Virus record (IMG/VR): IMGVR_UViG_3300022074_000015
Coordinates: 22,371-86,370 of that record
Strand: one strand, 5' to 3'
DNA from: a virus
Length of the DNA stretch: 64,000 nt
In this document: piece by piece, positions 15,950 to 35,330 of the stretch
Layout: each line of letters starts with the position of its first letter
Numbering within the stretch: position 1 is the first letter of the stretch
Position numbers and translations under genes: made by a program
The notes under the pieces: generated by a model
What the model was told of the DNA's origin: nothing
Databases searched by the model: none
Seen by the model: the letters and a program-made list of their open reading frames with translations, nothing else

Positions 15950-17584
15950 ATGTCAAGAATTAACGTAAATACTATTTCTGGTATTGGTGGAACATTTGTT
16001 ACCCTTCTTCATGGTGCGACAGGTGATGCATCTCGACTTACTTTCCCACCTACCACCATCGCATTCACCCCCGATATTTTAAGCACTAGTGCTGAAATTA
16101 ATACAAATATCGTCTTCACTTTTAATCAAAACATTGAGTTTTTTGGGACACCAGGAGATATTGAAATTAGACAAGGTTCCGCTAGTGGATCATTAATTGA
16201 AACTTTTGAAACAGGAACATCATCCAGACTTTCTATTTCTGCCAATACTCTTACTATAGATCCAACGAGTAACTTATTGCATGAAACAACTTATTATGTG
16301 ATTTTACCTCCTGTTGGTATTGCTAATACTCTTAATGCTTTATATTCTGGTAGTGAAAGTTATAATTTTACAACTAAAGTAAACGAGTATACAGTTACCG
16401 GTGCCCAAAATTCATTCTCTAGATTAGATCCCGGTTCACCAACCGGATACTACAAGTATCATGTATTTACAGGTACAACAACATTTACAGTTAACAAACC
16501 AGCAGCTGAGGCTGTTGATTTATCGTGGATGTTGATTGGTGGTGGTGGTTCAGGTGGAGCCGGTTACAGTCCTTCGAATGTAGGTGGCGGCGGCGGCGGT
16601 GCCGGTGGTGTCAAAAATGGAACCGGACCAACACTCAACCTTCCTGGACCAGCTACTTATATATTCACCCAAGGTGGTGGTGGTTCTATGACTACCAATA
16701 ATCCAACTCCATCAACTGATGGTACTGGTAGCACATTAGCAACCCCTGGTGGATCAGTAAAAGAATCTGTTCTTGGTGGTGGAGGTGGAGGTGGATATCC
16801 TTTCCCTAGCCCCACATATGTAAATGGAAGACCTGGTGCTTCTGGAGGTGGTTCTGGAGGCGGCGATCACCCTCAAGATGGACCACAAATTCATCCACAA
16901 TGGCCTGGGAGAGGGTTCTCAAGTCCACCATCGGTAGCAGGTGGCAGCGGAACATCTGGTCAAGGTAATAGTGGTGGAAAAGGAGCAACAGGATATTGTC
17001 CAAATTTAAGTTCTCCTCGGTGGTTCTCTGGCGGCGGCGGTGGAGGCGCTGGTGGTTCAGGTAATAATGCAACTTTTCCATCTAGGTATCAACCAACGCA
17101 GTGGCCTAGCTACAGCCAACCACCACAGTATCCTGGTTGGAAATGTTTTGGTGGAGATGGTGGAGCTGGTAAACCAATTCCTGCGTTTAATGGTCCTAAT
17201 TTATTAGGGAGTATGCCAATACCAGCGTTCCCATTAGATTTTCTTTTGAATACTCACAATACTGGTGTTGGACCTAGCGGATATTATGGTGGCGGAGGTG
17301 GCGGTGGGTCTTGTAGTCCTACCTATTTGTCAAATGCCGGTAACGGCGGATATGGTGGCGGCGGACATGGTTCTTACATAAGAACTCCTGGTAATTATGT
17401 ACCTACACCATTTTTACCTAGTTGGCCAACTCCATCTCCAACTAACAATACTTCTAGACCCGGATACCAGTATTCTGGCGGTGGAGGAGGAGGCGGTCCA
17501 TCTCCAAACAATTATCAATATGTTGGAAATGGTGGATCTGGTGTTTTCATGATTCGTCATGCTGTGCCTGAATCTTTAAGTTGA
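15950..17584 (+). CDS. Ig-like plus glycine-rich adhesin, array member 1 of 4
   Basis: 544 residues. The N-terminal tag is MSRINVNTISGIGGTFV. Residues about 35-140 form an SbsA/Big_5-type Ig-like domain (IAFTPDI...INTNIVFTFNQNIEFFG, TLTIDPTSNLLHETTYYVILP, YNFTTK). A TGYYKYHVFTGTTTFTV strand leads into a long region of (G)5-7 runs alternating with Pro/Asn/Tyr-rich loops. The C-terminus GGSGVFMIRHAVP is the signature end of Gly_rich_2-type proteins. Three further paralogues follow directly. The probable role is a surface-exposed virion adhesin built on packed poly-glycine helices, by analogy with glycine-rich adhesins of some T4-like phages. The function is inferred. Confidence 0.7.
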   Translation: MSRINVNTISGIGGTFVTLLHGATGDASRLTFPPTTIAFTPDILSTSAEINTNIVFTFNQNIEFFGTPGDIEIRQGSASGSLIETFETGTSSRLSISANTLTIDPTSNLLHETTYYVILPPVGIANTLNALYSGSESYNFTTKVNEYTVTGAQNSFSRLDPGSPTGYYKYHVFTGTTTFTVNKPAAEAVDLSWMLIGGGGSGGAGYSPSNVGGGGGGAGGVKNGTGPTLNLPGPATYIFTQGGGGSMTTNNPTPSTDGTGSTLATPGGSVKESVLGGGGGGGYPFPSPTYVNGRPGASGGGSGGGDHPQDGPQIHPQWPGRGFSSPPSVAGGSGTSGQGNSGGKGATGYCPNLSSPRWFSGGGGGGAGGSGNNATFPSRYQPTQWPSYSQPPQYPGWKCFGGDGGAGKPIPAFNGPNLLGSMPIPAFPLDFLLNTHNTGVGPSGYYGGGGGGGSCSPTYLSNAGNGGYGGGGHGSYIRTPGNYVPTPFLPSWPTPSPTNNTSRPGYQYSGGGGGGGPSPNNYQYVGNGGSGVFMIRHAVPESLS

Positions 17585-17594
17585 GGTATAATTT

Positions 17595-19205
17595 ATGTCT
17601 AATATAACTGTAACTAATATTTCTGGACTTAGCAGTTCATCTGTTTACTTTGAGCATGGTATCGCTGGTGATGGATTTGCTTTGTCTTTTTCTCCGGAGG
17701 TCTTAAGTTTTTCTCCGGTACCAAATTCTATTGATCAAAATCAACTTACAAATATTAATATAGTTTTTGATCAACCTATTCAATTTTCATTAACAGATCC
17801 TGGAGTAATTCAATTAAGGAGTAATAGTGCTAATGGATCTTTAATTGAATCTTTCAATACACAAAATCCTGGATCTCAACTTACTATTACACAAACTAAT
17901 GTTGCTGATGATACTCTTACAATCAATCCAATAAGTCAATTACCAGATGATACCAACGTATTTGTTGTAATACCTAACGTTGGTATTGCTAATACATTTG
18001 GTGGTTTGTATAAGGGTACAGACAAGTATTCATTTAAGACTTTACAGGCACCTTTAAACGCAACTGGTGGAACATACGCATTTAGTCAATCCAATGGTTC
18101 ATCACCAACCGGATACTTTAAGTATCATGTATTTGTAGGGACTGGTTCATTGAATATGAATGTTCCTATGAAATCATGTCCAACTTTTAATTTAATATGT
18201 GTTGCTGGTGGTGGATCTGGTGGTCCCGGATACAGTCCCACTAATGTCGGCGGTGGCGGCGGTGGAGCTGGTGGTGTTATTTCCGGTAGTAAACCTCAAT
18301 TAGCTGAAATTCCTGCTGGTAATCATATAATCACTATTGGTGGTGGTGGATCAAATAGTCCAGCCACTGAATCATATCCAGGCAATCCATCATCTTTTGG
18401 TGATATATTTGAATCTATAGGTGGTGGTGCTGGTGGAAATGGACCCACCCCATATCGTAGGCTCGTAGGTGGTGATGGTGGATCTGGTGGTGGAGGAGCT
18501 GGATCATATCAATATGAATGGGCACAACAATATAATCCTCCTCAACCTTTTCCTCAAAGAGGTCATGCGGTTTTTGCTGGTGGAAAAGGTGGTACTGGTC
18601 AAGGATATCCTGGTGGACATGGGTGGAAAGGACATACACAACCTCAACCCCAGATGGGTGCTGGCGGCGGCGGTGGAGGCGCTGGCTATCAGGGTACTAA
18701 CGCATCAGGTCCAAGCTATGGACCCTCCAATGGATATCCATATCCAAACTATGGTTTCCATCCACTTTGGCATGGACAAGGTGGACCTGGTGGTCAGGGT
18801 AGAGCTGAGCCTGTGTTTAACTCTCCTAATATAATGCCAGGAGCAACAGGATTACCTACCAAGTGGTCAAGTGAAGTAGGTCCATCAGGTTATTATGGTG
18901 GAGGAGGTGGAGGAGGATGCCCCAATAATGCTAATTATCTTCATGCTGGTAACGGTGGCGCTGGTGGTGGTGGACATGGTAGCGCGAACCACTATCCATA
19001 TCCAAACTATCCTCCCACTTCATATCATGGCAACAATTTTGCTCCCGAATTTCCAAATAACAGAGAACAAACTGAAAGTGGCACAGAGCACACTGGTGGT
19101 GGTGGCGGTGGATCTGGAGCCACACATTATTCCAATTATTCTGGTGGTTCTGGTGGATCTGGTATTGTTATCATTAGATATTCAATCCCTTCAACTTTAG
19201 CTTAA
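17595..19205 (+). CDS. Ig-like plus glycine-rich adhesin, array member 2 of 4
   Basis: 536 residues with the same order as member 1: tag MSNITVTNISGLSSSSV, Ig-like domain (FSPVPNSIDQNQLTNINIVFDQPIQF, LTINPISQLPDDTNVFVVIP, YSFKT), TGYFKYHVFVGTGSL, glycine-rich region and the end GGSGIVIIRYSIPSTLA. Loop sequences between Gly runs (PYPNYGFHPLWHGQGG, PYPNYPPTSYHG) differ from the paralogues, as expected for a diversified binding surface. It starts 10 nt after member 1 with no late promoter of its own, so it is probably co-transcribed. Confidence 0.7.
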   Translation: MSNITVTNISGLSSSSVYFEHGIAGDGFALSFSPEVLSFSPVPNSIDQNQLTNINIVFDQPIQFSLTDPGVIQLRSNSANGSLIESFNTQNPGSQLTITQTNVADDTLTINPISQLPDDTNVFVVIPNVGIANTFGGLYKGTDKYSFKTLQAPLNATGGTYAFSQSNGSSPTGYFKYHVFVGTGSLNMNVPMKSCPTFNLICVAGGGSGGPGYSPTNVGGGGGGAGGVISGSKPQLAEIPAGNHIITIGGGGSNSPATESYPGNPSSFGDIFESIGGGAGGNGPTPYRRLVGGDGGSGGGGAGSYQYEWAQQYNPPQPFPQRGHAVFAGGKGGTGQGYPGGHGWKGHTQPQPQMGAGGGGGGAGYQGTNASGPSYGPSNGYPYPNYGFHPLWHGQGGPGGQGRAEPVFNSPNIMPGATGLPTKWSSEVGPSGYYGGGGGGGCPNNANYLHAGNGGAGGGGHGSANHYPYPNYPPTSYHGNNFAPEFPNNREQTESGTEHTGGGGGGSGATHYSNYSGGSGGSGIVIIRYSIPSTLA

Positions 19206-19212
19206 TTTAAAA

Positions 19213-20748
19213 ATGTCAGAAATAAGAGTTAACAGTATTATTGGTGCTGATGGTGTAGGTTCGGTTGATCTTCCAAAAGGGAGTAGTGGTATTGGTACAG
19301 ATTTAAAGTTTGCTCCACTTATCATAGACTATAATCCTGAGGGTGGGTCTGATGGTATTGCTAATACACAAGATGTTGAATTTACATTTGATCAACCTAT
19401 TCAATTTTCTGCTACAGCAGGAAACATACAAATATGGCAGAATCAAATTGGATCTCCGGGAATTTTATTAGAAACAATAGCTGTTGGTGGTAGTAATAAT
19501 CCCAGCAACGCAACGATTAGTGGTAATGTATTGACAATCAATCCTACGTCTATTCTACCAAACAGTAGTAAAATATTTGTTAAAATAGACACTGTTGGTG
19601 TTGCTAGCACTTTAGGATCTGAATTTGTAGGTGAAGATAGATATGGATTCACTACAGCATCTGGTGCCTTCCAAATGACTGGTGGAAATGAATTTACCAC
19701 TGGTGGATACAAATATCATATTTTTGATGCCACAGGACCTCTTGTTGTATCTTCTCCTGGTGCTTCTGCCGTAAATGCTGCTATTATGGTAGTTGCTGGT
19801 GGTGGCGGTGGTGGATCTTATCCTGGGGGTGAACGATCTGGTGGTGGCGGTGGTGGCGGTGGTGTTATTCATTACGATGATATATCAAGATTTTCATCTG
19901 GATCATATACTGTAACGATTGGTGGTGGTGGTAATGGTCATAAACCATCAAGCACTGTTGTGGGTCAACGTGGAAATGATACTTATATCACAGACATTTC
20001 TACATCTTCCGATCTATACAGAGCGTTTGGTGGTGGAGGGGGATATTACGAAAACGCACCATGGCCTCAGACTTCACCCCTTAATCCGTGGAATCCTGGA
20101 ATTAGACCATCTGATGGAGGATCTGGTGGTGGACGTAATTCCTATGCTCCTACTCCGAATGCACAAACTCAAGGATTAAATTTTGGTGGTTTTGGCACTA
20201 AGGGTCAGGGAAGTAGGGGTATGGGTAAAGGAAGTTCTCCATACAACAATAAGTATTACATGACCAGTGGAGGAGGTGGAGGAGCGAATGGTGAAGGTTT
20301 ACCAGGATCCGAATATACTTCTCCACCAGCACCACAAAATATTGGAATGAGGGGTGGTGCCGGTGGACAAGGAAGGGCAGTCCCCGAATTCCAAGGTCCA
20401 GTAATGGCACCACATATTCCTACTGTTTCAGTACCTACTTTTGCTCCTCGTGTGGGTCCACAAGGTTATTATGGTGGAGGAGGTGGAGGAGGTGCAGGTT
20501 ATTTTCCCACTTATTCCGGTTACCGCTTTCACGGCGGTGCTCCTGGACAAGGTGGTGGTGGACATGGCGGATTCTATGATCCAACTCAACCAAGTCCACA
20601 TTCTTTTAATGCTCCAAGCCCTAATTATGCTGAGCATGGAGTATATGGTACCGGTGGCGGTGGTGGAGGTAATCGGGGTCCCTACACTTCCTATTATGCT
20701 GGCAACGGTGCATCTGGTATTGTTATGATTAGATACTCATACCCTTAA
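19213..20748 (+). CDS. Ig-like plus glycine-rich adhesin, array member 3 of 4
   Basis: 511 residues: tag MSEIRVNSIIGADGVGSV, Ig-like domain (IDYNPEGGSDGIANTQDVEFTFDQPIQFSA, LTINPTSILPNSSKIFVKI, YGFTTA), TGGYKYHIFDATGPL, then VVAGGGGGGSYPGG and further Gly runs, ending NGASGIVMIRYSYP. It begins 7 nt after member 2. The glycine-rich core GPQGYYGGGGGGG is common to members 1-3 (GPSGYYGGGGGGG in 1 and 2), while flanking loops vary. It lacks an own promoter. Function inferred from the array. Confidence 0.7.
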   Translation: MSEIRVNSIIGADGVGSVDLPKGSSGIGTDLKFAPLIIDYNPEGGSDGIANTQDVEFTFDQPIQFSATAGNIQIWQNQIGSPGILLETIAVGGSNNPSNATISGNVLTINPTSILPNSSKIFVKIDTVGVASTLGSEFVGEDRYGFTTASGAFQMTGGNEFTTGGYKYHIFDATGPLVVSSPGASAVNAAIMVVAGGGGGGSYPGGERSGGGGGGGGVIHYDDISRFSSGSYTVTIGGGGNGHKPSSTVVGQRGNDTYITDISTSSDLYRAFGGGGGYYENAPWPQTSPLNPWNPGIRPSDGGSGGGRNSYAPTPNAQTQGLNFGGFGTKGQGSRGMGKGSSPYNNKYYMTSGGGGGANGEGLPGSEYTSPPAPQNIGMRGGAGGQGRAVPEFQGPVMAPHIPTVSVPTFAPRVGPQGYYGGGGGGGAGYFPTYSGYRFHGGAPGQGGGGHGGFYDPTQPSPHSFNAPSPNYAEHGVYGTGGGGGGNRGPYTSYYAGNGASGIVMIRYSYP

Positions 20749-20750
20749 AT

Positions 20751-20758
20751 ACTAAATA
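20751..20758 (+). promoter_or_regulatory. T4-type late promoter ACTAAATA
   Basis: ACTAAATA, six of eight matches to TATAAATA, in the 32-nt gap before the ATG at 20781; the only promoter-like site inside the four-gene array. Confidence 0.45.
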
Positions 20759-20780
20759 GTCAAACGATAGGTTCAGATAA

Positions 20781-22376
20781 ATGTCATCTACTTTAAGAGT
20801 AAATACAATCACTAATAGCACCGGTGACGGAGCTGTTGATTTTCCTAGGGGAATAACTGGTGATGGATCTAATTTGAACTTTGATCCAAAGATTATCGGT
20901 CATACCCCTACTTTCTTTGGCACTGATGTACCAATTGAAACAAATATCACAATTACTTTCAATCAGAATGTTAAATTTTGGGGATCTGGGACTATTGAAA
21001 TAAGAGAGGGATCATCTTCAGGAACTGTTGCTTTCTCTTTTTCTATTACTAATAATACTGGCGGATCTGGACTGCAGATTGTAAATGAAAAATTAATAAT
21101 CACACCATCATCAAACTTATCGTATAATAAAACATATTTCGTAGTAATCCCATCAAACGGTATTGCTGGTCAAACTAGTGAAATCTATTTTGCTGGAGAT
21201 AATACATATTCGTTCCAGACTTTAACAGCTGCATTTTTAATGTCTGGTGGATCACAGGAATTTATTGTATATAATTCTTCATCGCCTACAAATTATTACA
21301 AATATCATATATTTACAGGAACATCGTCATTTACTTTAGCAAATCCATCGTCTAGTGCTACAGGATTTGCATTGATGATGGTAGCAGGAGGCGGCGGTGG
21401 TGGTGGATATCCTAGTAGCTATCGTGGTGGTGGTGGAGGTGGAGCAGGAGGTCTAATAACAAGAACTGGACCTTCGTTAGGATTATCTGCCGGAACTTAT
21501 AATATGACTATTGGTGCTGGTGGATATGGATATTATACTCCAAATCCAAATCCATCATATAGCAATCAACAATACTCCCAGCAAGGATTTGATACTCACA
21601 TAACACCACCAACGTCACCAACCTCATATAACTTAAGAGCATATGGTGGTGGAGCAGGAGGTACCTATAGTGGATATTATACTAATACCGGTAATCTTGT
21701 TCCTGAGCCTTCTGGTGCTGGAACTGGTGGTCCTGGTGGATCTGGTGGTGGATCATATTCGCACTATAATATTTCTGCTACTCAACCGAACGTTCACCCC
21801 GGTGGTTCTGGTGTCAGTGGACAGGGACATCCTGGAGGTGGTAATACATACTATCAGCCACCTGGAAATGGTTCTGTAGGTGGCGGCGGTGGCGGCGCGG
21901 GAGGTGCCGGAGGAAGAGCAAATTCTAATGGTAGTTCCACTCCAAACTCTAATTATTGGTATGCTGGTCATGGTGGACCTGGACTTTCTGTACCTAGTTT
22001 CCCATTCATTGATGTATTTTCTGGTGGAATAATTCCAGCACCCGATTTCCCTATGGAATCTCAGGAAAGAACTAACGGAACCTTTGCCGGTGGTGGAGGA
22101 GGTGGTGCTGGTCCTAGCAGTGGAAGTAGTGGAACCTATCGTGGATTGGGCGGCAGTGGCGGTGGCGGAACAGGTGGTGGAACTCAAAATCCTTCAGAAC
22201 CAGATTATCCATCTCCTCCCGGAAATCCTCAAAGCAGTTCTTACGGTGATAATGGTGCCAAATGCAGTGGTGGCGGTGGAGGTGGCGCACGAGAGTCTGC
22301 TACTTCATACTATGCAGGAAATGGTGGTTCGGGTCTTGCTATGATTAGATATGCATACCCAGCAGCATTGCTGTAA
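20781..22376 (+). CDS. Ig-like plus glycine-rich adhesin, array member 4 of 4
   Basis: 531 residues: tag MSSTLRVNTITNSTGDGAVDFPRG, Ig-like domain (IGHTPTFFGTDVPIETNITITFNQNVKFWG, LIITPSSNLSYNKTYFVVIP, YSFQTL), TNYYKYHIFTGTSSFTL, MMVAGGGGGGGYPSSYRGG, many Gly runs, and the end NGGSGLAMIRYAYPAALL. It is preceded by its own late promoter variant. It is the most divergent of the four in the Gly-rich region but keeps the FTGTSSF and IRY landmarks. Inferred to be a host-recognition protein. Confidence 0.7.
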   Translation: MSSTLRVNTITNSTGDGAVDFPRGITGDGSNLNFDPKIIGHTPTFFGTDVPIETNITITFNQNVKFWGSGTIEIREGSSSGTVAFSFSITNNTGGSGLQIVNEKLIITPSSNLSYNKTYFVVIPSNGIAGQTSEIYFAGDNTYSFQTLTAAFLMSGGSQEFIVYNSSSPTNYYKYHIFTGTSSFTLANPSSSATGFALMMVAGGGGGGGYPSSYRGGGGGGAGGLITRTGPSLGLSAGTYNMTIGAGGYGYYTPNPNPSYSNQQYSQQGFDTHITPPTSPTSYNLRAYGGGAGGTYSGYYTNTGNLVPEPSGAGTGGPGGSGGGSYSHYNISATQPNVHPGGSGVSGQGHPGGGNTYYQPPGNGSVGGGGGGAGGAGGRANSNGSSTPNSNYWYAGHGGPGLSVPSFPFIDVFSGGIIPAPDFPMESQERTNGTFAGGGGGGAGPSSGSSGTYRGLGGSGGGGTGGGTQNPSEPDYPSPPGNPQSSSYGDNGAKCSGGGGGGARESATSYYAGNGGSGLAMIRYAYPAALL

Positions 22377-22407: not shown

Positions 22408-22830
22408 ATGGCTCATTTTGCTGAATTAGATTCAAATAACGTTGTGACGAGAGTTATTGTCGTCGCAGACGCTGACACTACTGATGAAAACGGTACTGAA
22501 ACTGAAGCAGTTGGTGTCGCTTACCTAAAAGGACTTTTTGGTGAAAATACCAAATGGGCAAAAACATCATACAATGCTAACATCAGACTCAGATATGCTG
22601 GTCCTGGATCCATATTTGATGCTGAAAAGGATTGTTTTCTTGCTCCAAAACCATTTGATTCTTGGACTTTGAATAGTGCCACGCCTTACGAATGGGAAGC
22701 ACCTGTAACGATGCCAACTACGACTGGGGAAATGGATGAGCATGGTATAGTTTGGGAGTGGAATGAATCTTCTTATAAGGCAGATTCTACTAAAGGATGG
22801 GTGTTAAGTAGTCCAATTCCAACAGAATAA
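22408..22830 (+). CDS. Conserved marine-phage protein of unknown function
   Basis: 140 residues. The pattern MAHFAELDSNNVVTRVIVV, NIRLRYAGPGSIFDAEKDCFLAPKPFDSWTLN and WEAPVTMPTTTG is one I recognise from many marine T4-like and other phages, usually beside tail fibre genes, without an established function. Many charged and aromatic residues and no membrane segment suggest a soluble protein, possibly a fibre-associated or assembly protein. It is the last late-promoter gene before the oxygenase operon. Confidence 0.6.
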   Translation: MAHFAELDSNNVVTRVIVVADADTTDENGTETEAVGVAYLKGLFGENTKWAKTSYNANIRLRYAGPGSIFDAEKDCFLAPKPFDSWTLNSATPYEWEAPVTMPTTTGEMDEHGIVWEWNESSYKADSTKGWVLSSPIPTE

Positions 22831-22833
22831 TAT

Positions 22834-22862
22834 TTGACATTACATCATAATTGAACTATAAT
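22834..22862 (+). promoter_or_regulatory. Consensus sigma-70 type (early) promoter, TTGACA-17-TATAAT
   Basis: TTGACA at 22834-22839, a 17-nt spacer and TATAAT at 22857-22862, a full match to the bacterial housekeeping consensus. It lies right after the last fibre-block gene and about 28 nt before the TTG start at 22890, and would let the host polymerase read the three oxygenase-like genes early in infection, unlike the surrounding late genes. Confidence 0.85.
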
Positions 22863-22889
22863 TTAAATTGAACAATAGGAGTGTGAAAA

Positions 22890-23510
22890 TTGGCATTTCA
22901 AAGTGTTTGGTACTTCAGTGATATTCCTGAAGACGTTGTCACTATTTTAGAAAAAGATCTTGTAGATAAGTTTGACCATGAAATGGGTGATTCTCGTCTT
23001 ATGGGTGATGCTCTGAATAAAGATAAGCGCAACTCAAAAAATGCATGGGTTCCATCCTCTCATTGGTTGGGAGGATTCATGTGGCATTATATTGAACGTG
23101 CAAATCGTGAAAACTTTTTGTATAATCTTCATTGTATTGATGGAGAATCCATGCAGTACACACAGTATGGACCCGGACAATTTTATGGTTGGCACAATGA
23201 CTCAGGTCTTGCCTGTCATTACAAACCAGCAAGTGTTGGCAACAGAATGGAAGGTAGAGCACAAGACTTTGTTAACGAGAATACCGAACTAGTTCGTAAA
23301 CTTTCATTTGTTCTTCAACTTTCTGATCCTGATGATTATGAAGGTGGAAATCTTCAATTACTTGATGAGGCAGGTAAGTCATACTTTGCCCCCAGAAAAC
23401 GTGGTTGTGTAATTCTTTTTGATTCTCGTACTCAACATCGTGTTCTTCCTGTTAAGTCTGGTCTCCGTAAGTCTATCGTTGGGTGGACTGTTGGTCCTCG
23501 TTGGAAGTGA
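22890..23510 (+). CDS. 2OG-Fe(II) oxygenase, PKHD/PiuC-like hydroxylase
   Basis: 206 residues from a TTG start with an AATAGGAG site upstream. The double-stranded beta-helix iron site is complete: H102-x-D104 in GQFYGWHNDSG, distal H183 in TQHRVLPV and the 2-oxoglutarate-binding Arg193 in LRKSIVGWTVGPRWK. The latter ending is typical of PKHD-type hydroxylases. It would hydroxylate a protein or small-molecule substrate using oxygen and 2-oxoglutarate; the substrate is unknown. It is the first gene of a three-gene unit with a consensus early promoter and intrinsic terminator. Cyanophages commonly carry such genes. Confidence 0.85.
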   Translation: MAFQSVWYFSDIPEDVVTILEKDLVDKFDHEMGDSRLMGDALNKDKRNSKNAWVPSSHWLGGFMWHYIERANRENFLYNLHCIDGESMQYTQYGPGQFYGWHNDSGLACHYKPASVGNRMEGRAQDFVNENTELVRKLSFVLQLSDPDDYEGGNLQLLDEAGKSYFAPRKRGCVILFDSRTQHRVLPVKSGLRKSIVGWTVGPRWK

Positions 23511-23518
23511 GGTAAATC

Positions 23519-24244
23519 ATGGCAGAAGGAATGAATCATGAGCAAATTCAGCATCAAGAAAGAATTAATAGTGGAACCTCCTGGACAAATAATGAACAAT
23601 TTGACAAGGATGGATATATTGTTGTAAAAGATTTGTGGGATCCTAAAGAATTATTTGTTCCTGTTCCAGAAATTAGAGGACAAATAAATTATTGGGGTAA
23701 AAGAGAAGATCAATACAATCATACACCTCTAGAAGGACAAGTAGAAGGTTCTTTGGCTTGTTATACACGCCCACAATATAAAAGTATTCACTCGGGTATA
23801 AGACTTAAGTTAGAGAAGATCATTGGCAGGAAGTTATCTAATACTTACTACTATGATCGTTTTTATTTTGCTGGTCAAGGATTGGCACTTCATGCCGACA
23901 GACCTGCTTGTGAAATATCTGTTAGTGTTCACATCAGCACTAATTTTGAGGAGTGTTGGCCACTTTGGATTAAAACTCCAGATACTTATACCGATAAGCA
24001 CAAAAATATAGTTAAAGAATCTGGTGAATCGCGTTCTGTATGTTTAAACGCTGGTGATGGTATGATCTATAAAGGTTGTGAACGACCACATTGGAGAGAT
24101 CCACTTCCATCTAGGCATACTGGAAATTATTTCATCCGAAAACTTGGACAAAAAGACGATACTTTTTATCATCAAGTATTCTTTCATTATGTTCTTACTG
24201 ATGGAGAACGTGCTCAATGTGCTAATGATATGGCGAGGGAATGA
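23519..24244 (+). CDS. 2OG-Fe(II) oxygenase-like protein
   Basis: 241 residues. A probable iron site is H125-x-D127 in LALHADRPACEISVSVHIS with a distal His191 in CERPHWRDPLP; the family is, to my knowledge, found in cyanophages. The N-terminal part has FDKDGYIVVKDLWDP, like the start of phytanoyl-CoA dioxygenase-type proteins. It begins 8 nt after the first oxygenase gene, and its TGA stop overlaps the ATG of the next (ATGA), so the three are translated together. The substrate is unknown. Confidence 0.75.
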   Translation: MAEGMNHEQIQHQERINSGTSWTNNEQFDKDGYIVVKDLWDPKELFVPVPEIRGQINYWGKREDQYNHTPLEGQVEGSLACYTRPQYKSIHSGIRLKLEKIIGRKLSNTYYYDRFYFAGQGLALHADRPACEISVSVHISTNFEECWPLWIKTPDTYTDKHKNIVKESGESRSVCLNAGDGMIYKGCERPHWRDPLPSRHTGNYFIRKLGQKDDTFYHQVFFHYVLTDGERAQCANDMARE

Positions 24245-24876
24245 TGAAAACATTAGAACAAATTTTTGATAATGTGGAGTTGATTGGACAAACTCCAAAT
24301 ATGATCATGAAGGTTCAATTGCCAGACTTCATCTTTGATGAAGTTAAATCTTGGATTGAACCATGTAGGTCAATTAAAGACAATGAATATGCTGAGTTAC
24401 TTAATCATCGTAACGTAGGTACCGGTCACAATTCATATCAAACTGGAATTGCCAAGAAGTATATCGACAACACTTATTTTCTTGGTTATGTTATTAACAT
24501 TGCTGAACTGTATTTGAAAACGATCAACCATCAAGGTGTAAATCCGGATGGTAGTTTCTATCGAAAAGTAGTAATGCGTGATAGTTCAGGTCATTATGAT
24601 GGTTATGATATTTGGATGAATTTCACTTATAAAGGGGATGATAATCCAATACACAATCATGCTGGTAGTCTTTCATCTATCATTTACGTTAAAGATGAAG
24701 ATAGTCAACCAACAATTTTTCCATCACTGAATTATATTCATCAACCAAAAGAGGGAGAAATGTTGTTGTTCCCGAATCATCTTGAACACATGGTTGAAGA
24801 AAAACAAACAGAATCTGAAAGGATTTCTATTTCATATAATTTAAATATACTTCAATCACAGGAACAAAGGTATTGA
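24241..24876 (+). CDS. Putative 2OG-Fe(II) oxygenase (H-x-H variant)
   Basis: 211 residues. The C-terminal half follows the pattern of the 2OG-FeII_Oxy_5 family: IWMNFTYKGDDNPIHNHAGSLSSIIYV with H138 and H140, then GEMLLFPNHLEHMV with H183 and the ERISISYNL strand with the likely 2OG-binding Arg. The usual Asp of H-x-D is replaced by His, which may alter iron binding or activity. Two ATG codons (24241 and 24244) could start it; the first overlaps the upstream stop. It ends just before an intrinsic terminator. Confidence 0.7.
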   Translation: MMKTLEQIFDNVELIGQTPNMIMKVQLPDFIFDEVKSWIEPCRSIKDNEYAELLNHRNVGTGHNSYQTGIAKKYIDNTYFLGYVINIAELYLKTINHQGVNPDGSFYRKVVMRDSSGHYDGYDIWMNFTYKGDDNPIHNHAGSLSSIIYVKDEDSQPTIFPSLNYIHQPKEGEMLLFPNHLEHMVEEKQTESERISISYNLNILQSQEQRY

Positions 24877-24881
24877 TATTA

Positions 24882-24908
24882 CCGAGCAGTAAAATGCTCG
24901 GTTTTTTT
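24882..24908 (+). terminator. Intrinsic terminator of the oxygenase operon
   Basis: Perfect 7-bp stem CCGAGCA (24882-24888) / TGCTCGG (24895-24901) with a GTAAAA loop and a run of seven T (24902-24908). It lies 6 nt after the stop of the third oxygenase gene. The last T of the tract is the first base of the next late promoter. Confidence 0.9.
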
Positions 24909-24915
24909 ATAAATA
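24908..24915 (+). promoter_or_regulatory. Perfect T4-type late promoter TATAAATA fused to a terminator
   Basis: Exact TATAAATA starting on the last base of the terminator T-tract, 17 nt before the ATG at 24933. It restarts late transcription for the second fibre block. Confidence 0.7.
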
Positions 24916-24932
24916 TCTAAAAAGCACATATA

Positions 24933-25481
24933 ATGTCCCAGACAAGAGCACAATTATTATCTCCTGTTGGTATTTTTACTGGTACAGGTATCAGTATAAA
25001 TGGCATTATTACTGCTACTAGCTTCGTAGGAGATGGTTCTGGTCTTATAAATGTCGCTGGTGGTGGAGGCGGAGCAGGATCTCTTATTGTAAAAGATAGT
25101 GGAACCTTAGTCGGAACTATCGGAACGATAGATTTTGGTGCTGGTATGAATGTTACTGATGCTATTGCTGGCATCGTAACCGTAACTGCTGCAGATTCAA
25201 ATACCACTTATACTCAAGATTCAGTTGCCTCTGGTGATAATGTAAATCTAAGATTGAGTGGTAACGATTCATCTACGGATGATATTTTAGTAACAGCAGG
25301 TAATAATATAACTATTACATCTGTAACCTCTAATGGTTTTACCATCAACAGCACATCTGTGGAAGCAACTAAAGTTTTAACAATTGGTGTTAGGACAGGT
25401 GCTGCTGTTTCATTTGCACTACCTTCCAGCACATTTAATGTTATTGGAAGAAGTGGGAATAACATTCCTATCACAGTATAA
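24933..25481 (+). CDS. Small fibre protein
   Basis: 182 residues. It opens MSQTRAQLLSPVGIFTGTGIS and has the GIITATSFVGDGSGLINV module with a short Gly run, like the small fibre genes of the first block. The middle contains Asn/Thr-rich strands and the end LTIGVRTGAAVSFALPSSTFNVIG is similar to the end of the 11957 product. Preceded by a perfect late promoter. Inferred to be a fibre subunit; no enzymatic motif. Confidence 0.65.
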   Translation: MSQTRAQLLSPVGIFTGTGISINGIITATSFVGDGSGLINVAGGGGGAGSLIVKDSGTLVGTIGTIDFGAGMNVTDAIAGIVTVTAADSNTTYTQDSVASGDNVNLRLSGNDSSTDDILVTAGNNITITSVTSNGFTINSTSVEATKVLTIGVRTGAAVSFALPSSTFNVIGRSGNNIPITV

Positions 25482-25482
25482 T

Positions 25483-25490
25483 ACTAAATA
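25483..25490 (+). promoter_or_regulatory. T4-type late promoter ACTAAATA
   Basis: ACTAAATA, 20 nt before the ATG at 25511, in a 29-nt intergenic gap. Confidence 0.45.
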
Positions 25491-25510
25491 GATAAAAATA
25501 GTTCTTTAAA

Positions 25511-26578
25511 ATGGCTGATAGGTTTCCACTAATTGCCAATACTAGTGCTAACCAGATACAAGAGATTGGGTCTGGAGATAACTTAGACTTAACGGGAAAT
25601 AATATAACAGGTGTTTCAAACGTTGATGCTACCAACATCAGCCTTACTGAAAACATTAATGTTACTGGAGTATCAACTTTTGCTGGGCAAACTTTTATTC
25701 CTAATGTTACTGGAGTATCTACGTTTGCTTCTGATGTAGATTTAAGTGCTGATCTTGCTGTTGGTGGAGCAACTAATCTTACTCATCTTTCGGTGAGTGG
25801 TATTTCAACATTAGCATCACTTACATTTGCTTCTGTCGGTAATGATACTGAACTTACTGAAGATGGTGGATCTATTGTTATAAATTCTGCCGAACTTCAT
25901 CACAGTGGATCAAAAAAACTTGAGACTACTAACTCTGGAGTTATCGTAACTGGTGGTGTAACGGCAAGTTTATTTACTGGTAATGGTTCTGGATTGACAG
26001 ATGTTGTTGGTCAAGGATCTGGTGTTCAGGTTAAAGATAATGGTAGCACTGTAGGTGTTGCCGCAACAATTAATTTCGGTGGTAATTTATATGTTAGTGG
26101 TTTATCTAATGGTTCTGTAACAGTATCATCTGGTGGTATTGATTCTGGATATTTTGAACTCAATAGTGTAGGTATTCACACTCTATCTCGTGTTGGTGTC
26201 GGAACTGATAATCCAACTGTTCCTTTAGAAGTTCTTGGAAATATTAAATCAAGTGCTACAATAGCAGCACAAGATTTTAACACGACGTCAGATTTAAATC
26301 TGAAAGAAAACGTAGAAGATATTGTTGGAGCACTTGATAAATTAAGTAGGATTAGGGGTGTAAGTTTTGATTGGGTTGGACGTGAAGAATCGTCTTTGGG
26401 AGTGATCGCACAGGAAGTTGAATCTGAATTCCCAGAAATAGTTTCAAGCACGGAACCAAAACAAGTAAATTATAATGGATTAATTGGTGTTTTAGTTGAG
26501 GCAGTCAAGGAGTTGAAGTTGGAAAATGAATTATTGAGAGCACAAATTCACGATATTATGAACACAATAAATAGCTAA
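25511..26578 (+). CDS. Fibre protein with C-terminal S74 chaperone domain
   Basis: 355 residues. The opening MADRFPLIANTSANQIQEIGSGDNLDLTG is closely related to that of the 13949 product. The shaft contains repeated NVTGVSTFA units (about 55-80) and a SLFTGNGSGLTDV module. The S74 domain begins at TSDLNLKEN (Ser260), with GVSFDWVG, LGVIAQEVESEFPEIV, VNYNGLIGVLVEAVKEL and a short coiled-coil tail. It is likely a trimeric fibre processed by its chaperone domain; compared with 13949 it is the same design with a longer shaft. Confidence 0.8.
   Translation: MADRFPLIANTSANQIQEIGSGDNLDLTGNNITGVSNVDATNISLTENINVTGVSTFAGQTFIPNVTGVSTFASDVDLSADLAVGGATNLTHLSVSGISTLASLTFASVGNDTELTEDGGSIVINSAELHHSGSKKLETTNSGVIVTGGVTASLFTGNGSGLTDVVGQGSGVQVKDNGSTVGVAATINFGGNLYVSGLSNGSVTVSSGGIDSGYFELNSVGIHTLSRVGVGTDNPTVPLEVLGNIKSSATIAAQDFNTTSDLNLKENVEDIVGALDKLSRIRGVSFDWVGREESSLGVIAQEVESEFPEIVSSTEPKQVNYNGLIGVLVEAVKELKLENELLRAQIHDIMNTINS
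26566..26573 (+). promoter_or_regulatory. T4-type late promoter AATAAATA
   Basis: AATAAATA within the last codons of the preceding gene, 13 nt before the ATG at 26587. Confidence 0.5.
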
Positions 26579-26586
26579 AAATTCCA

Positions 26587-27978
26587 ATGTATATCGGAAG
26601 ACCCCAAAAGACTGGACCCTATATTACACTGGATGATATTTCAAGCCAGTTCAATGGTGTAGATGTAACATTTAATCTTACCACTGGCGGTAGTCCTTTC
26701 TTTGCTGATAATCCATATACAGTATTCTTATCACTAAATGGTGTCATTCAAGAACCAGTTAGTGCTTTTACAATTGTTGGTGATCAGGTTACATTTGCTA
26801 ATCCACCATTATCGAATGCTAATTTCTTTGCCACTGTTCTTGGATCAACATTTAATAGAGAAATAAGAAACGCAACAAGTCTTGCTACTGGTGTTAACGT
26901 AACTGCTGGTGATATTTCTTGTAATGCTCTTTCGTCTTCCGGAACTGTATCTGCTACTTCTTTCGTAGGTGATGGATCTCAACTTAGTGGTATTGATGCC
27001 ACTTCACTTATAGATCAAAACGGCACAGTAAGAGCACAAGCAAATTCTGCTGGTCTTGTCGTTACTGGTATTCTTACTGCCACTCAGTTTGATGGTGTAG
27101 ATGTTACTGCTCTACGTGATAGTGCCGGTGGTAATATTATAGTTCAGGCAAATCCTGGCGGTGTTGTTATTAATGGTATTGCTACAGCAACTACCTTTGT
27201 TGGTAACCTGACAGGTAGTGTAACAGGTAACACCTCTGGAACTGCTGGTGGACTTACGGGTACTCCAAACATCACCGTTGGTTCTGTAACAGCTGCTTCT
27301 GGATCCTTTAGTGGTGATGTCAATATTGGCGGGGTCCTCACTTACGAAGATGTCACTAATATTGATTCTGTTGGACTTATTACCGCCAGAAGTGGTATTC
27401 ATGTTGGAACTGGTGTTACATATACCGAAGACCTTGTTGTTGATGGTGATGCCAGAATCACTGGGATTTTAACAATTGGCACTGGTACGGTTACCATTGA
27501 TGGTAATAATAACTCTGTTAATATTGGTGCTGGCGTAACATTACATACTATTACGTCATCAGTTAATCAATTAGAAGTTACTGGTGTTTCTACCTTTGTA
27601 GGAGTTACTACTTTTGTAAATAGTATATACATTGGTGATACATTAAATGTACCAAATGTTATCATATCCGGTAATACTTTTGGTGAAGATGTAGATACCA
27701 GAAACATAAATGCTTCTGGTATTATTACTGCCACAAATGGATTTAATCTTGGAATTAGTTCTACTGGAACTAGTATAACTAATAGTGGTGCAGTAACTAC
27801 ATTAAACTTTGTCGGTGCTGGTAACAGTATTTCATATGATTCCGGAACAAAAACAGTTGATATTAGTATTTCAAGTGGTTCTGATTCTGGTATTGTAATT
27901 GTTGACGGTGGAGATTTTAATTCATCCAGTTCTATTGCTGGTGCTGGTTCAGAAATAAACGGAGGAGAATTTACCTAA
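26587..27978 (+). CDS. Multi-module fibre protein
   Basis: 463 residues. The N-terminal DDISSQFNG...LSLNGVIQEPVSAF domain (about 15-95) is shared with the 14424 and 11957 products. The shaft is a chain of GxxTATxFxG units, with LTGTPNITVGSVTAASG also in the 6005 product, LTYEDVTNIDSVGLITAR near residue 253, and GTGVTYTEDLVVDGDARITGILTIGTG, which recurs nearly unchanged in the 11957 product. It ends AGSEINGGEFT, and its TAA overlaps the ATG of the next gene. A mosaic long-fibre component; role inferred. Confidence 0.65.
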   Translation: MYIGRPQKTGPYITLDDISSQFNGVDVTFNLTTGGSPFFADNPYTVFLSLNGVIQEPVSAFTIVGDQVTFANPPLSNANFFATVLGSTFNREIRNATSLATGVNVTAGDISCNALSSSGTVSATSFVGDGSQLSGIDATSLIDQNGTVRAQANSAGLVVTGILTATQFDGVDVTALRDSAGGNIIVQANPGGVVINGIATATTFVGNLTGSVTGNTSGTAGGLTGTPNITVGSVTAASGSFSGDVNIGGVLTYEDVTNIDSVGLITARSGIHVGTGVTYTEDLVVDGDARITGILTIGTGTVTIDGNNNSVNIGAGVTLHTITSSVNQLEVTGVSTFVGVTTFVNSIYIGDTLNVPNVIISGNTFGEDVDTRNINASGIITATNGFNLGISSTGTSITNSGAVTTLNFVGAGNSISYDSGTKTVDISISSGSDSGIVIVDGGDFNSSSSIAGAGSEINGGEFT

Positions 27979-30527
27979 TGGGCGTTCCATCTACTCGTAC
28001 ACCTGTAAGAATTGCTAGGGGTACATACGCAAACTTAAACACAGTTGATGCACTTGCTGCTCTGCAAGAAGGCGAGATATGCTTTGCAACTGACCAGGAT
28101 CGACTTTATGTCAAAGAGGGATCTGGACTTACTAGCATCTCTGCATCTTCTACAGCTTCACCAACACCTTCTAACATCACTGCATCCCCTGCTTTTGTTA
28201 GTGGTACTGGTACTCAAGCTGATCCATTTGTGGTTACTAGCACTGCTGTCCCTTTTAGTGGTGGTACTACTGAAAGTGCTCAAGAAATTACACTGACTGG
28301 CACTGCTGGTGACTTTGTTATCTTTACTGACAACAGTGTTTCTGCATCTGGCAATCGTTTTTCTGGACAGGTTGTCGGTAACGTAGATAGCGGTGGTACT
28401 TTTAAGTTCAAACTTAAGTACGAAGATACACCAGGCACTACTGTTAATAATACTACTTACAACGGGTTAGTACAAATTGGTACTGCTCACTTCTCATTTA
28501 CTGTTGTTCAGTCAAATCTGACCGCACTATCTCAATCATCTGCTTCTTCTATTGCTGGAACTGGTGGTGTTGGCAACGTTTTGACTTGCACTCCAGGCAC
28601 TGCAACTGGTGGCACTGGTACAATTACTTATGCTACTAGATGGCAAAGATCTTTTACTGGTATTGATGGATTCTTTGATATTAACGGTGCTACTGGTAAC
28701 ACATATACTCAAACAAACAGTGACGCAGGTTATTACGTCCGTGCTGTTACAACTGCAACAGATGCGTCGCCTTCTGGTCAAGGTGGTCCTTTGACTTTAG
28801 AGCTTCCTAGTGGTGTGTCTGCTCAGGTCCCTACTGGCGCTGCTCCTGTTATTAATAACCTTGTTCTCTCTGAAGATGATACAACTGGTGCCCGTTTTAC
28901 CAGTAAAGTCTTTTCGGCTGACTTTACTATGGGTAACGACGGCACACCTACAAGCCAAAAGTCTGTTAAAGGGACAGTTACTGCTAACTTTGAAAACTTC
29001 CCATCAACTGACTCCGTAAGTAGTACATCTAATAATATACAATATGACCTTTTAGCAAGTAGCAGACAGTACGGAGGTGCTCATACACTATCGTCAACAT
29101 GGTATTCACCACTAGGTATTCTATTACAAGACCTTGGCACATCCCTGAAGGTTGCTTTTTTCCATGCTACCGGTAGTGGTTCTAGTAATAATATTTTTGA
29201 AAAGGAGGTGAATCTTCTAAACGCTAATCTTACACAAGTTGACCAAGTTAATTGGTCTTATTCTGGTGAAGCACGATGGCCTGGAACTTTTACTGCAGGC
29301 GTAGACCCTGATGGCCGTCAATATATTAATTGGCCTCATCATAACAACAACAATTACGGCACAACATTCTATTGGGGTGATTCAAATAACCCTAGATACA
29401 ACCAAAGAGCCTTTGAGTTTACTACTTCAAATGGCACCCATTTTTATATGCCTACAGGTGGTAATTCAAATCGTTTGTACCGTCGTAAGTCAAGCGAGTC
29501 TTCGTATTCTTACAAATATACGTTTACAAGTTCTGGTGACAAATATTACACCGTTGCCTGTGAGTTTAATGGAGATTTGTTCCTAATTTGGTATGATAGT
29601 AGTTACAACTACGTTCGTTGGGACACAATATCTACAACCAGTTCAAGCTTTTCTGGGCAAATTAATGGGAGTAATTATTCGCCAGGTAGCCTCTTTTCAA
29701 CGCCACAGCACGTATTTGTACATAAAAACACCCTTTTTATAGCAGCGGATAGTCAGCTCTTTAAACTCAACAACAATACATGGACTCAACTTACAAGCTC
29801 TAACTTCTCTGGAAACAGTGTTTATGGTACATTTAGCGATGATACTTATATTTACGCCCAATCTAAATCTGGTAATTCTACACAATGGTGGAGAAGTAAC
29901 AATTTAGGAGTTACTTGGGTAGCAGATTTTTCCGGTAATTATTACGGTCCTAGTGCGTACTCTAAACAGGGCGGCCAGGAAGGATTAGGTGGTGTTCGTC
30001 TAAGAGCTTTTGGATGGGATTTTTACCAGAGTCACTATAATTCTAATTGGGGTTATGCGTTCCATTATAGACAATTTAACCAAGTTGTTGTCACATTTGC
30101 CAGCAATAGCCAGTTATCGAGTATAAATATTGGTGACTTCATGCGTGTAAGTGGTGAAACTGATCGTAGAGAATACGCTTATGTTGCTGGTGTGAATGCT
30201 TCTTCTAACCAGCTAACTTTAAATATGAACACGAATCCAACAGCTGGGCAGACAATGGAAACCCTTGCTTCGACTGGATCTTCTAGTGCTACTAAGTATT
30301 TGGTTATCAACTCTACAGGAAATGTCACAGGATATCAAGGTTCTGATCCAGGTTTTGTTGAAATCAGCCCCGGCACAGCAATTGACCTTACTTTCCCAGC
30401 TACATTCCCATCAGGAAATGCTCCTGACGACGAATTTGCTGCAGGCACTGTAATGCAAGTAACGGGTAAGGCTACTAATGCTTCTGCGTCAGATACCTTC
30501 AATAGCAACCAAGTAACACCTTCCTAA
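27978..30527 (+). CDS. Large fibre/adhesin with Ig-like and propeller-like regions
   Basis: 849 residues. Residues about 11-48 (RIARGTYANL...EGEICFATDQDRLYV) match the opening found in phage tropism-determinant and hyaluronidase-type fibres. Around 190-280 there is an Ig-like domain (LTCTPGTATGGTGTITYATRWQRS...DAGYYVRAVT). Residues about 330-740 are Tyr/Trp/Asn-rich strands with an Asp-box-like S-N-N-L-G-V-T-W near 640, suggesting a beta-propeller related to BNR repeats, though the Asp is replaced by Asn. Translationally coupled to the previous gene and followed 1 nt later by an assembly chaperone. Probably a receptor-binding fibre. Confidence 0.6.
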   Translation: MGVPSTRTPVRIARGTYANLNTVDALAALQEGEICFATDQDRLYVKEGSGLTSISASSTASPTPSNITASPAFVSGTGTQADPFVVTSTAVPFSGGTTESAQEITLTGTAGDFVIFTDNSVSASGNRFSGQVVGNVDSGGTFKFKLKYEDTPGTTVNNTTYNGLVQIGTAHFSFTVVQSNLTALSQSSASSIAGTGGVGNVLTCTPGTATGGTGTITYATRWQRSFTGIDGFFDINGATGNTYTQTNSDAGYYVRAVTTATDASPSGQGGPLTLELPSGVSAQVPTGAAPVINNLVLSEDDTTGARFTSKVFSADFTMGNDGTPTSQKSVKGTVTANFENFPSTDSVSSTSNNIQYDLLASSRQYGGAHTLSSTWYSPLGILLQDLGTSLKVAFFHATGSGSSNNIFEKEVNLLNANLTQVDQVNWSYSGEARWPGTFTAGVDPDGRQYINWPHHNNNNYGTTFYWGDSNNPRYNQRAFEFTTSNGTHFYMPTGGNSNRLYRRKSSESSYSYKYTFTSSGDKYYTVACEFNGDLFLIWYDSSYNYVRWDTISTTSSSFSGQINGSNYSPGSLFSTPQHVFVHKNTLFIAADSQLFKLNNNTWTQLTSSNFSGNSVYGTFSDDTYIYAQSKSGNSTQWWRSNNLGVTWVADFSGNYYGPSAYSKQGGQEGLGGVRLRAFGWDFYQSHYNSNWGYAFHYRQFNQVVVTFASNSQLSSINIGDFMRVSGETDRREYAYVAGVNASSNQLTLNMNTNPTAGQTMETLASTGSSSATKYLVINSTGNVTGYQGSDPGFVEISPGTAIDLTFPATFPSGNAPDDEFAAGTVMQVTGKATNASASDTFNSNQVTPS

Positions 30528-32117: not shown

Positions 32118-32372
32118 ATGAAAATTATCCATGAAAATTGTGATCAAGAATTGGCAAACGATAAGACACTGCCAAACAATGCATTTATAATTGAATATAA
32201 AGTTGATGACGTATCCTACTATGACATTGTTGTAGCAGCAAAGCAGTCAGAAATATTCGACCACTATTATGATAAGTATAAGAGTGGTTTCATTACCATG
32301 AAGCAAGCAGAAGGTAGAATTAGTCCTAAACTTTGGGGCAACGAGCCTCCAAAAAGCAAAAAGAAAAAATGA
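32118..32372 (+). CDS. Small conserved phage protein
   Basis: 84 residues from ATG 32118, 4 nt after the previous stop. The sequence includes NNAFIIEYKVDDVSYYDIVVAAKQSEIFDHYYDKY and ends with a basic tail (PKSKKKK). It is conserved in form with small proteins next to the 31499 homologue in other cyanophages, as far as I recall, but no function is known. Its stop overlaps the ATG of the oxygenase-like gene at 32369, so translation is coupled. Confidence 0.55.
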   Translation: MKIIHENCDQELANDKTLPNNAFIIEYKVDDVSYYDIVVAAKQSEIFDHYYDKYKSGFITMKQAEGRISPKLWGNEPPKSKKKK

Positions 32373-32908
32373 TTGATGTAATATCCATCAAAGATTTCTA
32401 CCATCCTGATAAAGACCAGAAAGAATCAGTAATTAGTGTCTTAGAACAGAATCGTAAATATGCTAATTATGATTTAGGATTTAATTTTCCTATTATAGAT
32501 ACCAAAGATTTATTTTTTGCCAACTTATATGATCAATTTTTTCTAAAATGTCAGTCTATTTTTGGTAATTTTAAATTATCACTTAGAAATAGTAGAACAT
32601 GTTATTGTTACCTTGATCGAAAAAAGTATTATTTACCATCAGTATACCATAATCATATTTCAACCTCTACGATTAACGGAGTTTACTACTTAGATGTAGG
32701 TGAGGGTGATGGTATTTCTTTCATAGATGATGAATATGATAAAGAAGAAGTTTATAATGTATCCACAGGTGAATTATTAATCTTTGCGAATCATTTGGTT
32801 CATAAACCAAATAGACCAACTCACGACGGAATTAGATACTCATTGAACATGGAAATAAAGACTGATGAGTCTGCGGAAGAAATTTTTAGTAGGGATAGGT
32901 CTATATAA
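32369..32908 (+). CDS. Putative 2OG-Fe(II) oxygenase-like protein (H-x-H variant)
   Basis: 179 residues. The C-terminal half follows the same plan as the 24241 product: SVYHNHISTSTINGVYYL with H94 and H96, GELLIFANHLVHKPN with distal H145 (second His of the motif), and the GIRYSLNMEI strand carrying the probable 2OG-binding Arg. This is the pattern of the 2OG-FeII_Oxy_5 family with His in place of Asp. The N-terminal part is unassigned. Substrate unknown. It ends the operon that began with glutaredoxin. Confidence 0.65.
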   Translation: MIDVISIKDFYHPDKDQKESVISVLEQNRKYANYDLGFNFPIIDTKDLFFANLYDQFFLKCQSIFGNFKLSLRNSRTCYCYLDRKKYYLPSVYHNHISTSTINGVYYLDVGEGDGISFIDDEYDKEEVYNVSTGELLIFANHLVHKPNRPTHDGIRYSLNMEIKTDESAEEIFSRDRSI

Positions 32909-34698: not shown

Positions 34699-35330
34699 GC
34701 GTAAAATTTATCAGTGTGACTCCTGATGCGGAGAAGATGATGGCATATGTTGCCCGCGTCTCAAACCCCAATAATCAAGAAAATCCTAACTACGCCAAAT
34801 TGTTGGGTTACTGTATTAAGCACAACCACTGGTCTGTGTTTGAACAGGCATTTATGACTCTGGAACTTGAAACTACCAGAGGATTAGCGGCTCAAGTGCT
34901 TCGTCACCGTAGTTTCACATATCAAGAATTTTCGCAACGCTACGCTGATAGTTCAATGCTTGCGGACACTATTCCTATTCCTGAACTTCGTCGTCAGGAT
35001 ACCAAGAATCGTCAGAATTCTATTGATGATATTGATCCTTTTGTCAAGCAAGAGTTTGAAATCAAAATTCGTCGTCACTTTGATGAAGCAATGACACTGT
35101 ATCAATCTATGCTTGATATGGGGATCGCAAAGGAATGTTCACGTTTTGTGCTTCCCCTTGCCACGCCTACTAGAATCTACATGTCCGGTTCATGCCGTTC
35201 ATGGATTCATTATATCAATCTGCGTACCGCTAACGGTACTCAGAAAGAGCATATGGATCTCGCAGAAGGTTGTAAGAAAGTCTTTATTGAGCAATTTCCA
35301 ACCTGTGCTGAGGCACTAGAATGGAAGTAA
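34695..35330 (+). CDS. thyX: Flavin-dependent thymidylate synthase ThyX
   Basis: 211 residues, the usual length. The ThyX signature RHRx7S is present at residues 70-80 (RHRSFTYQEFS), together with QRYADSS and a C-terminal SCRSWIHYINLRTANGTQKEH segment. The enzyme makes dTMP from dUMP using methylene-tetrahydrofolate and FAD/NADPH, feeding phage DNA synthesis. Cyanophages commonly carry thyX in place of the T4 td gene. It is coupled to the upstream 34528 gene by an ATGA overlap and overlaps the start of the oxygenase gene at 35321. Confidence 0.95.
   Translation: MSVKFISVTPDAEKMMAYVARVSNPNNQENPNYAKLLGYCIKHNHWSVFEQAFMTLELETTRGLAAQVLRHRSFTYQEFSQRYADSSMLADTIPIPELRRQDTKNRQNSIDDIDPFVKQEFEIKIRRHFDEAMTLYQSMLDMGIAKECSRFVLPLATPTRIYMSGSCRSWIHYINLRTANGTQKEHMDLAEGCKKVFIEQFPTCAEALEWK

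Follow-up and report, generated by a model that had tools for sequence, protein, structure and literature searches.

Few genes of marine T4-like phages have been copied as often as those for 2OG-Fe(II) oxygenases. The locus described here raises the question of what three coupled oxygenase-like genes, placed behind an early-type promoter, do in the middle of a fibre gene cluster. It was analysed in a stretch of 64,000 nucleotides (the window), which is part of an 86,370-base IMG/VR record of a T4-like cyanophage. The genes of the locus (A, B and C, in this order) are already known and have been counted as auxiliary metabolic genes, for which roles in DNA repair, 2-oxoglutarate control and host metabolism were proposed in the literature. 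A and B correspond to the GC412-GC615 pair of T4-like cyanophages (S-SM2 SSM2_035-036; Bellamy gp46-47), which is joined by an oxygenase as the third gene and matches the present locus in its genes, their order, the promoter and the adjacent fibres. The literature labels this pair as auxiliary metabolic genes or 'ferrochelatase', whereas the present analysis links it to the fibres. In the literature searched (mostly non-subscription articles), no mention was found of the promoter conservation, of the linkage to fibres or of the association with Gly-rich fibres.

Operon layout and expression signals

The first-pass annotation had described a closed unit with a full consensus promoter and a strong terminator amid late-expressed fibre genes, and this description was borne out by the order of promoter, three open reading frames, terminator and late box of the next gene (Table 1). 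Scans of the 15-33 kb region, the 64-kb window and the 86-kb record all gave this promoter as the sole 12/12 match to TTGACA-17-TATAAT. A starts with TTG, its relatives with ATG, and an AGGAG site is located 5' of the gene. The gap between A and B comprises 8 nt, and C overlaps B by 4 nt (ATGA).

Table 1. Positions of the operon, its signals and the neighbouring fibre genes in the window; the last row refers to other loci.
Feature	Position	Strand	Evidence or remark
Four paralogous Gly/Pro-rich fibres (511-544 aa), candidate substrates	15950..22376	+	PF21722 and Big_5 in the two scanned
phrog_7759 protein, fibre-associated	22408..22830	+	phrog_7759 5e-41; directly upstream of the operon
Sigma-70 early-type promoter TTGACA-17-TATAAT	22834..22862	+	12/12 match
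A: 2OG-Fe(II) oxygenase by sequence, PF13640/phrog_61, prolyl-hydroxylase/PKHD-like	22890..23510	+	PF13640 7e-15, phrog_61 1e-38
B: phrog_2954, 'ferrochelatase' label, partner of A	23519..24244	+	phrog_2954 6e-54
C: PF13759/phrog_81 oxygenase, HxH motif, optional third gene	24241..24876	+	PF13759 1e-13
Intrinsic terminator of the operon	24881..24902	+	8-bp stem, 5 G-C, U tract
T4-type late box TATAAATA of the next fibre gene	24908..24915	+	25 nt before ATG 24933
Downstream fibre block, S74-chaperone fibre etc.	24933..30527	+	PF13884 in 25511-26578
Recurrent phrog_7759 cassettes	about 1500-4400		L115, L117, L138, L139, L153, L158, L162, L168, L179, L181, L187, L193

The promoter is a conserved feature of A loci. 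Matches of at least 11/12 were present within 100 nt upstream of 50/73 A genes, compared to 22/1165 other genes, and both S-SM2 and Bellamy carry an identical 12/12 promoter at about -52 with differing spacers. Its retention upstream of A in relatives indicates that the promoter in the window is not due to chance. Across 51 sites upstream of A, the hexamers contained approximately 1.5-2 bits at each position (0.8 at the final position of TTGACA), values that are inflated by the picking of sites at ≥10/12, while most spacer positions, some near -10 excepted, stayed below 0.7 bits; unlike the hexamer values, the fixed spacing and distance are no consequence of this picking. A good -35 element was absent in the divergent members S-MbCM6, P-RSM4, S-SSM5 and S-MS29. 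Sigma-70-like motifs were previously reported for early genes of S-PM2 and Syn9, and none were found in S-RSM4 (PMC2984593).

The terminator was the strongest in the region, with comparable structures in five related loci (L022, L023, L024, L026, L102). The late box TATAAATA follows it after 5 nt and is kept at a similar position in L024, L025, L026, L041 and L102, and the phrog_7759 gene upstream of the operon has its own late box, AATAAATA, at -33. The known late box of cyanomyoviruses is NATAAATA (PMC2984593). Of the 19 remaining gene starts of the fibre cluster, 10 had a NATAAAT box within 40 nt, compared to 5.4% of random positions (60-nt windows); the three operon genes had none, in agreement with the claimed late expression of the flanks. 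Since counts of TATAAATA across the whole window were not above chance, it is the position relative to the starts that matters.

The three gene products and the pairing of A with B

The coupling of the three genes was evident, as had been claimed, and A and C were recognized as oxygenases by profile; B had no Pfam hit of its own. A matched PF13640 with 56 bits (cut-off 27), and in 61 sequences H102-x-D104..H183 was invariant and R193, the 2OG-binding arginine, nearly so. On this sequence evidence A is classified as a 2OG-Fe(II) oxygenase, and among the three proteins it alone passes a classic oxygenase profile with an HxD motif. PKHD/PiuC hydroxylases were its closest solved relatives in a profile search of the PDB (PKHD hydroxylase, 3dkq, 5e-8); 5c5t was matched at 0.002, the match to a prolyl 4-hydroxylase entry was weak, and matches to capsid proteins (E ~0.1) were taken as chance. 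Members of phrog_61, the family of A, were reported to be structurally similar to the human prolyl hydroxylase EGLN3 (PMC12774648). Judged by its similarity to PKHD and prolyl hydroxylases, A is most likely prolyl-hydroxylase-like. It shares the HxD..H..R motif, the profile and the fold similarity reported for its family with the EGLN/PHD and PKHD-type hydroxylases (EGLN3, PiuC), but differs from them in having a constant partner, B. The A proteins encoded at fibre loci formed a single clade (support 97/89), apart from the uvsY-adjacent paralogue tested.

B is labelled 'ferrochelatase' in its family. This identity was rejected, as neither B nor 12 relatives matched PF00762 (HemH) at E≤1. H125-x-D127..H191 was invariant in 63 B sequences, and relatives of B matched PhyH (PF05721) or 2OG-FeII_Oxy_2 (PF13532) weakly (E 0.01-0.02); hhalign comparisons of B with A, C and PhyH-type profiles yielded nothing. 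B is a probable, divergent 2OG-Fe(II) oxygenase. It is closely preceded by A in 70/80 IMG/VR loci, and 5 of the remaining 10 end at a contig end. In two phages the proteins are naturally fused (ACG-2014f gp206, S-SCSM1 ORF248), with the B domain at the N terminus and the A domain at the C terminus (L111 6839-7927; L112 10803-12164). A few genes separate ORF248 from a gene for a short tail fibre, and gp206 lies near nrdB/cpeT, away from fibres. The adjacency of an oxygenase and a 'ferrochelatase' was noted earlier in pelagiphages and interpreted as haem chemistry (PMC9599517).

C matched PF13759 with 52 bits (cut-off 27). In eight C proteins HNH..H..R is kept, so that 8/8 have HxH at the usual place of HxD instead of the 2-His-1-carboxylate triad; HxH also occurs in related cyanophage oxygenases, and metal ligation in C and its relatives may depart from the classic triad.

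Linkage to fibre genes and candidate substrates

Synteny of A-B with fibre genes, proposed as a check on a fibre-related role, was found in at least ten Kyanoviridae genera. The pair follows or lies within the fibre block in S-SM2, Bellamy, S-MbCM6, ACG-2014g, S-CAM8, P-RSM4, S-RIM50, ACG-2014b, S-SSM5 and S-MS29, and a fibre-like gene was present at a distance of ≤5 kb in 68/82 loci, a conservative lower bound given that fibre-like genes were called from a small reference set. Another locus is used in Sf-CH11, where A-B is part of an oxygenase cluster between structural genes, and the same applies to B in S-RSM4. Related clusters of A-like genes and B are located beside neck/baseplate or tail genes in SAR11 phages (on the opposite strand in HTVC008M). 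This location of the clusters, being independent of the host, argues for a phage substrate. It does not extend to all 2OG oxygenases. In the whole genome of S-SSM5, oxygenases and paralogues also adjoin uvsY/uvsW, uvsX/gp41 and CP12, and the notion that every such protein is a fibre enzyme was rejected for this reason.

Oxygenases of the C type are linked to fibres in another context. In 29/80 phrog_7759 loci, a PF13759 oxygenase is the gene directly before phrog_7759, the gap between them usually being -1 to 4 nt; in 20 loci the oxygenase overlaps an ORF of ~85 aa by 4 nt. The recurrent cassette has the order large ORF, 85-aa ORF (phrog_21526), PF13759 oxygenase (ATGA overlap) and phrog_7759, and Pfam scans of three cassettes (L115, L153, L168) each identified the large ORF as a Gly_rich_2 fibre. 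These cassettes occur in diverse uncultured phages, their oxygenases fall into 10 clusters at 70% identity, and the record of the closest isolate gives a gammaproteobacterium as the host. Oxygenases thus form part of fibre cassettes outside the cyanophages as well.

The four paralogous fibres preceding the operon contain 21-23% G and 7.3-9.9% P, compared to 0.8-5.7% P in the other ORFs of the fibre cluster, so that the Pro-richest fibres are those that adjoin the operon. Additional PF21722 places were found elsewhere in their block. The collagen-like fibre mentioned in the first-pass annotation was not found in the cluster, the longest GXY run being 6 repeats in a Gly stretch. Gly-rich fibres also form the tip in other T4-like phages; the gp38 adhesins of S16 and PP01 are Gly-rich and folded as polyglycine-II sandwiches (PMC12892980). 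The window fibres differ by being Pro-rich (7-10%), and the likeness is one of Gly-richness.

The relationship between enzymes and fibre composition was analysed within one clade, for which a tail fibre gene served as the anchor and in which A is found in 11/41 loci and missing in 30/41. After dereplication to 28 loci, a Gly-rich fibre was present in 7/7 loci with A and in 8/21 without it (p 0.007), and the proline content of the Gly-rich fibre amounted to 5.7% with A and 3.9% without (p 0.02). Ordinary fibres showed no such difference (3.6 versus 3.7%, p 0.9), and no association was seen within the clade when loci with any oxygenase were compared to those with none (p 0.69). These tests are exploratory, small and post hoc, involve related sequences and correct only partly for kinship; they point to A, Gly-rich fibres and proline in particular. 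A pooled comparison, in which Gly-rich fibres near any oxygenase were Pro-richer (6.1 versus 3.2%, p 3e-7), was dropped as confounded, because the association disappeared inside the phrog_7759 set, where the values with and without C-type oxygenases were 3.2 and 3.2% (p 0.68).

A possible role in fibre maturation and its alternatives

The suggestion of the first-pass annotation that the enzymes modify fibre proteins now has better support than its original argument from position. It gained from the fibre linkage of A-B, the C-type cassettes, the structural neighbours in SAR11 phages and, within one clade, the tendency of A to accompany Gly-rich fibres with more proline; the part concerning a collagen-like fibre fell away, as did an extension to oxygenases generally. 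The following sequence of events is proposed. The host RNA polymerase with sigma-70 would transcribe A-B-C early from their own promoter and halt at the terminator, so that the enzymes would already be in place when late promoters begin to drive fibre synthesis. The prolyl-hydroxylase-like A, together with its constant partner B and often C, would then hydroxylate the neighbouring fibres rich in Gly and Pro, with proline as the most likely target; we regard this explanation as a whole as about as likely to be true as false. Polyglycine II resembles polyproline II in geometry, and the modification might, as the virion is assembled, make adhesin domains of the polyglycine-II/polyproline-II-like type more stable or more diverse, with prolyl hydroxylation stiffening the lattice or changing the tip loops. 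The broader proposal that several marine phage families possess dedicated fibre-maturation oxygenases, with the A-B pair and C-type enzymes hydroxylating polyglycine/polyproline-type adhesins and those of the window being made in advance from an early promoter, is put forward tentatively, at slightly less than an even chance. Such a post-translational chemistry of receptor-binding proteins was not found reported for phages in the literature searched. If it is true, a group of 'auxiliary metabolic' genes would become virion maturation machinery, fibre specificity would gain a chemical layer, and phage adhesion would be tied to the supply of oxygen, iron and 2-oxoglutarate.

The texts on the virion proteomes of the cyanophages S-SCSM1 and S-SZBM1 name no 2OG oxygenase, as would be expected of enzymes that do their work ahead of assembly or in the course of it. 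Several points were counted against a role in fibre modification: no modified fibre was reported in the literature searched, A paralogues adjoin recombination genes, the ACG-2014f fusion is encoded away from fibres, and C-type oxygenases show no relationship with the proline content of Gly-rich fibres. A further point is the sigma-70 timing, a typical trait of host-takeover genes.

The early promoter makes a host-directed function the main rival, in which A-B-C would hydroxylate a translation factor, ribosomal protein, RNA polymerase or other host protein and the fibre locus would be incidental. Hydroxylation of cellular proteins is a known activity of bacterial 2OG oxygenases (PMC4295552), and paralogues exist outside fibre loci, but the constant fibre neighbourhood, the coupled fibre-oxygenase cassettes of other phages and the tracking of Gly-rich fibres by A would all be left unexplained, and we consider this explanation unlikely. 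The operon also resembles morons in having its own promoter and terminator between late genes and in its variable presence, exemplified by the absence of A from most loci of the clade analysed. An autonomous early unit could be tolerated in a gene-exchanging fibre cluster, as a recombination hot spot, without any fibre function. Against this stand a composition that is not foreign (36.2% GC, compared to 36.8% in the rest of the window), the identical place in many genera, the old and conserved single clade formed by A with its tie to a fibre class and the gene-tight arrangement of the fibre-oxygenase cassettes, which make an ordinary moron rather improbable.

Two further readings were weighed. 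Hydroxylation of lipids, glycans or metabolites, for instance together with the NodU-like carbamoyltransferase that adjoins A in S-CAM8, P-RSM4, S-SSM5 and S-MS29, could alter the host surface, and one B relative shows a PhyH-like hint; given that the other isolates examined had no carbamoyltransferase beside A, and that A is similar to PKHD/prolyl hydroxylases, such envelope or small-molecule chemistry is very unlikely. Still less can be said for DNA repair or modification, or 2-oxoglutarate and haem metabolism. These roles have been proposed in the literature (Sullivan 2010) from uvsX/uvsY adjacency and the 'ferrochelatase' label, and are in keeping with the A paralogue beside uvsY/uvsW and the gene order in pelagiphages. 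They are opposed by the missing PF00762 match of B, by the separation of the fibre-locus A clade from the uvsY-type protein tested and by the observation of no repair gene immediately next to the cassette.

Additional observations concern genes in the vicinity of A and homologues elsewhere. A Trp-7-halogenase (weakly similar to QhpG/LodB) and a NodU-like carbamoyltransferase, possibly further modification enzymes, are located beside A in some phages (L016 6442-7998; L010 6352-7962). The Trp halogenase, a possible member of the island, adjoins it in Sf-CH11 and lies close to the neck locus of HTVC008M; in S-SSM5, by contrast, its neighbour is gp33. A-B-C, with A 73% identical, is present on a contig of the Anaerolineales MAG UBA832 (L194), which is probably a misbinned phage contig. 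Outside the fibre cluster, the window contains another phrog_81-type oxygenase-like ORF (32333-32908) and a match to phrog_274 ('DNA endonuclease V') at 35321-35851. C and PF13759 proteins match phrog_274 too; this profile appears to be related to 2OG oxygenases, and its label is probably wrong.
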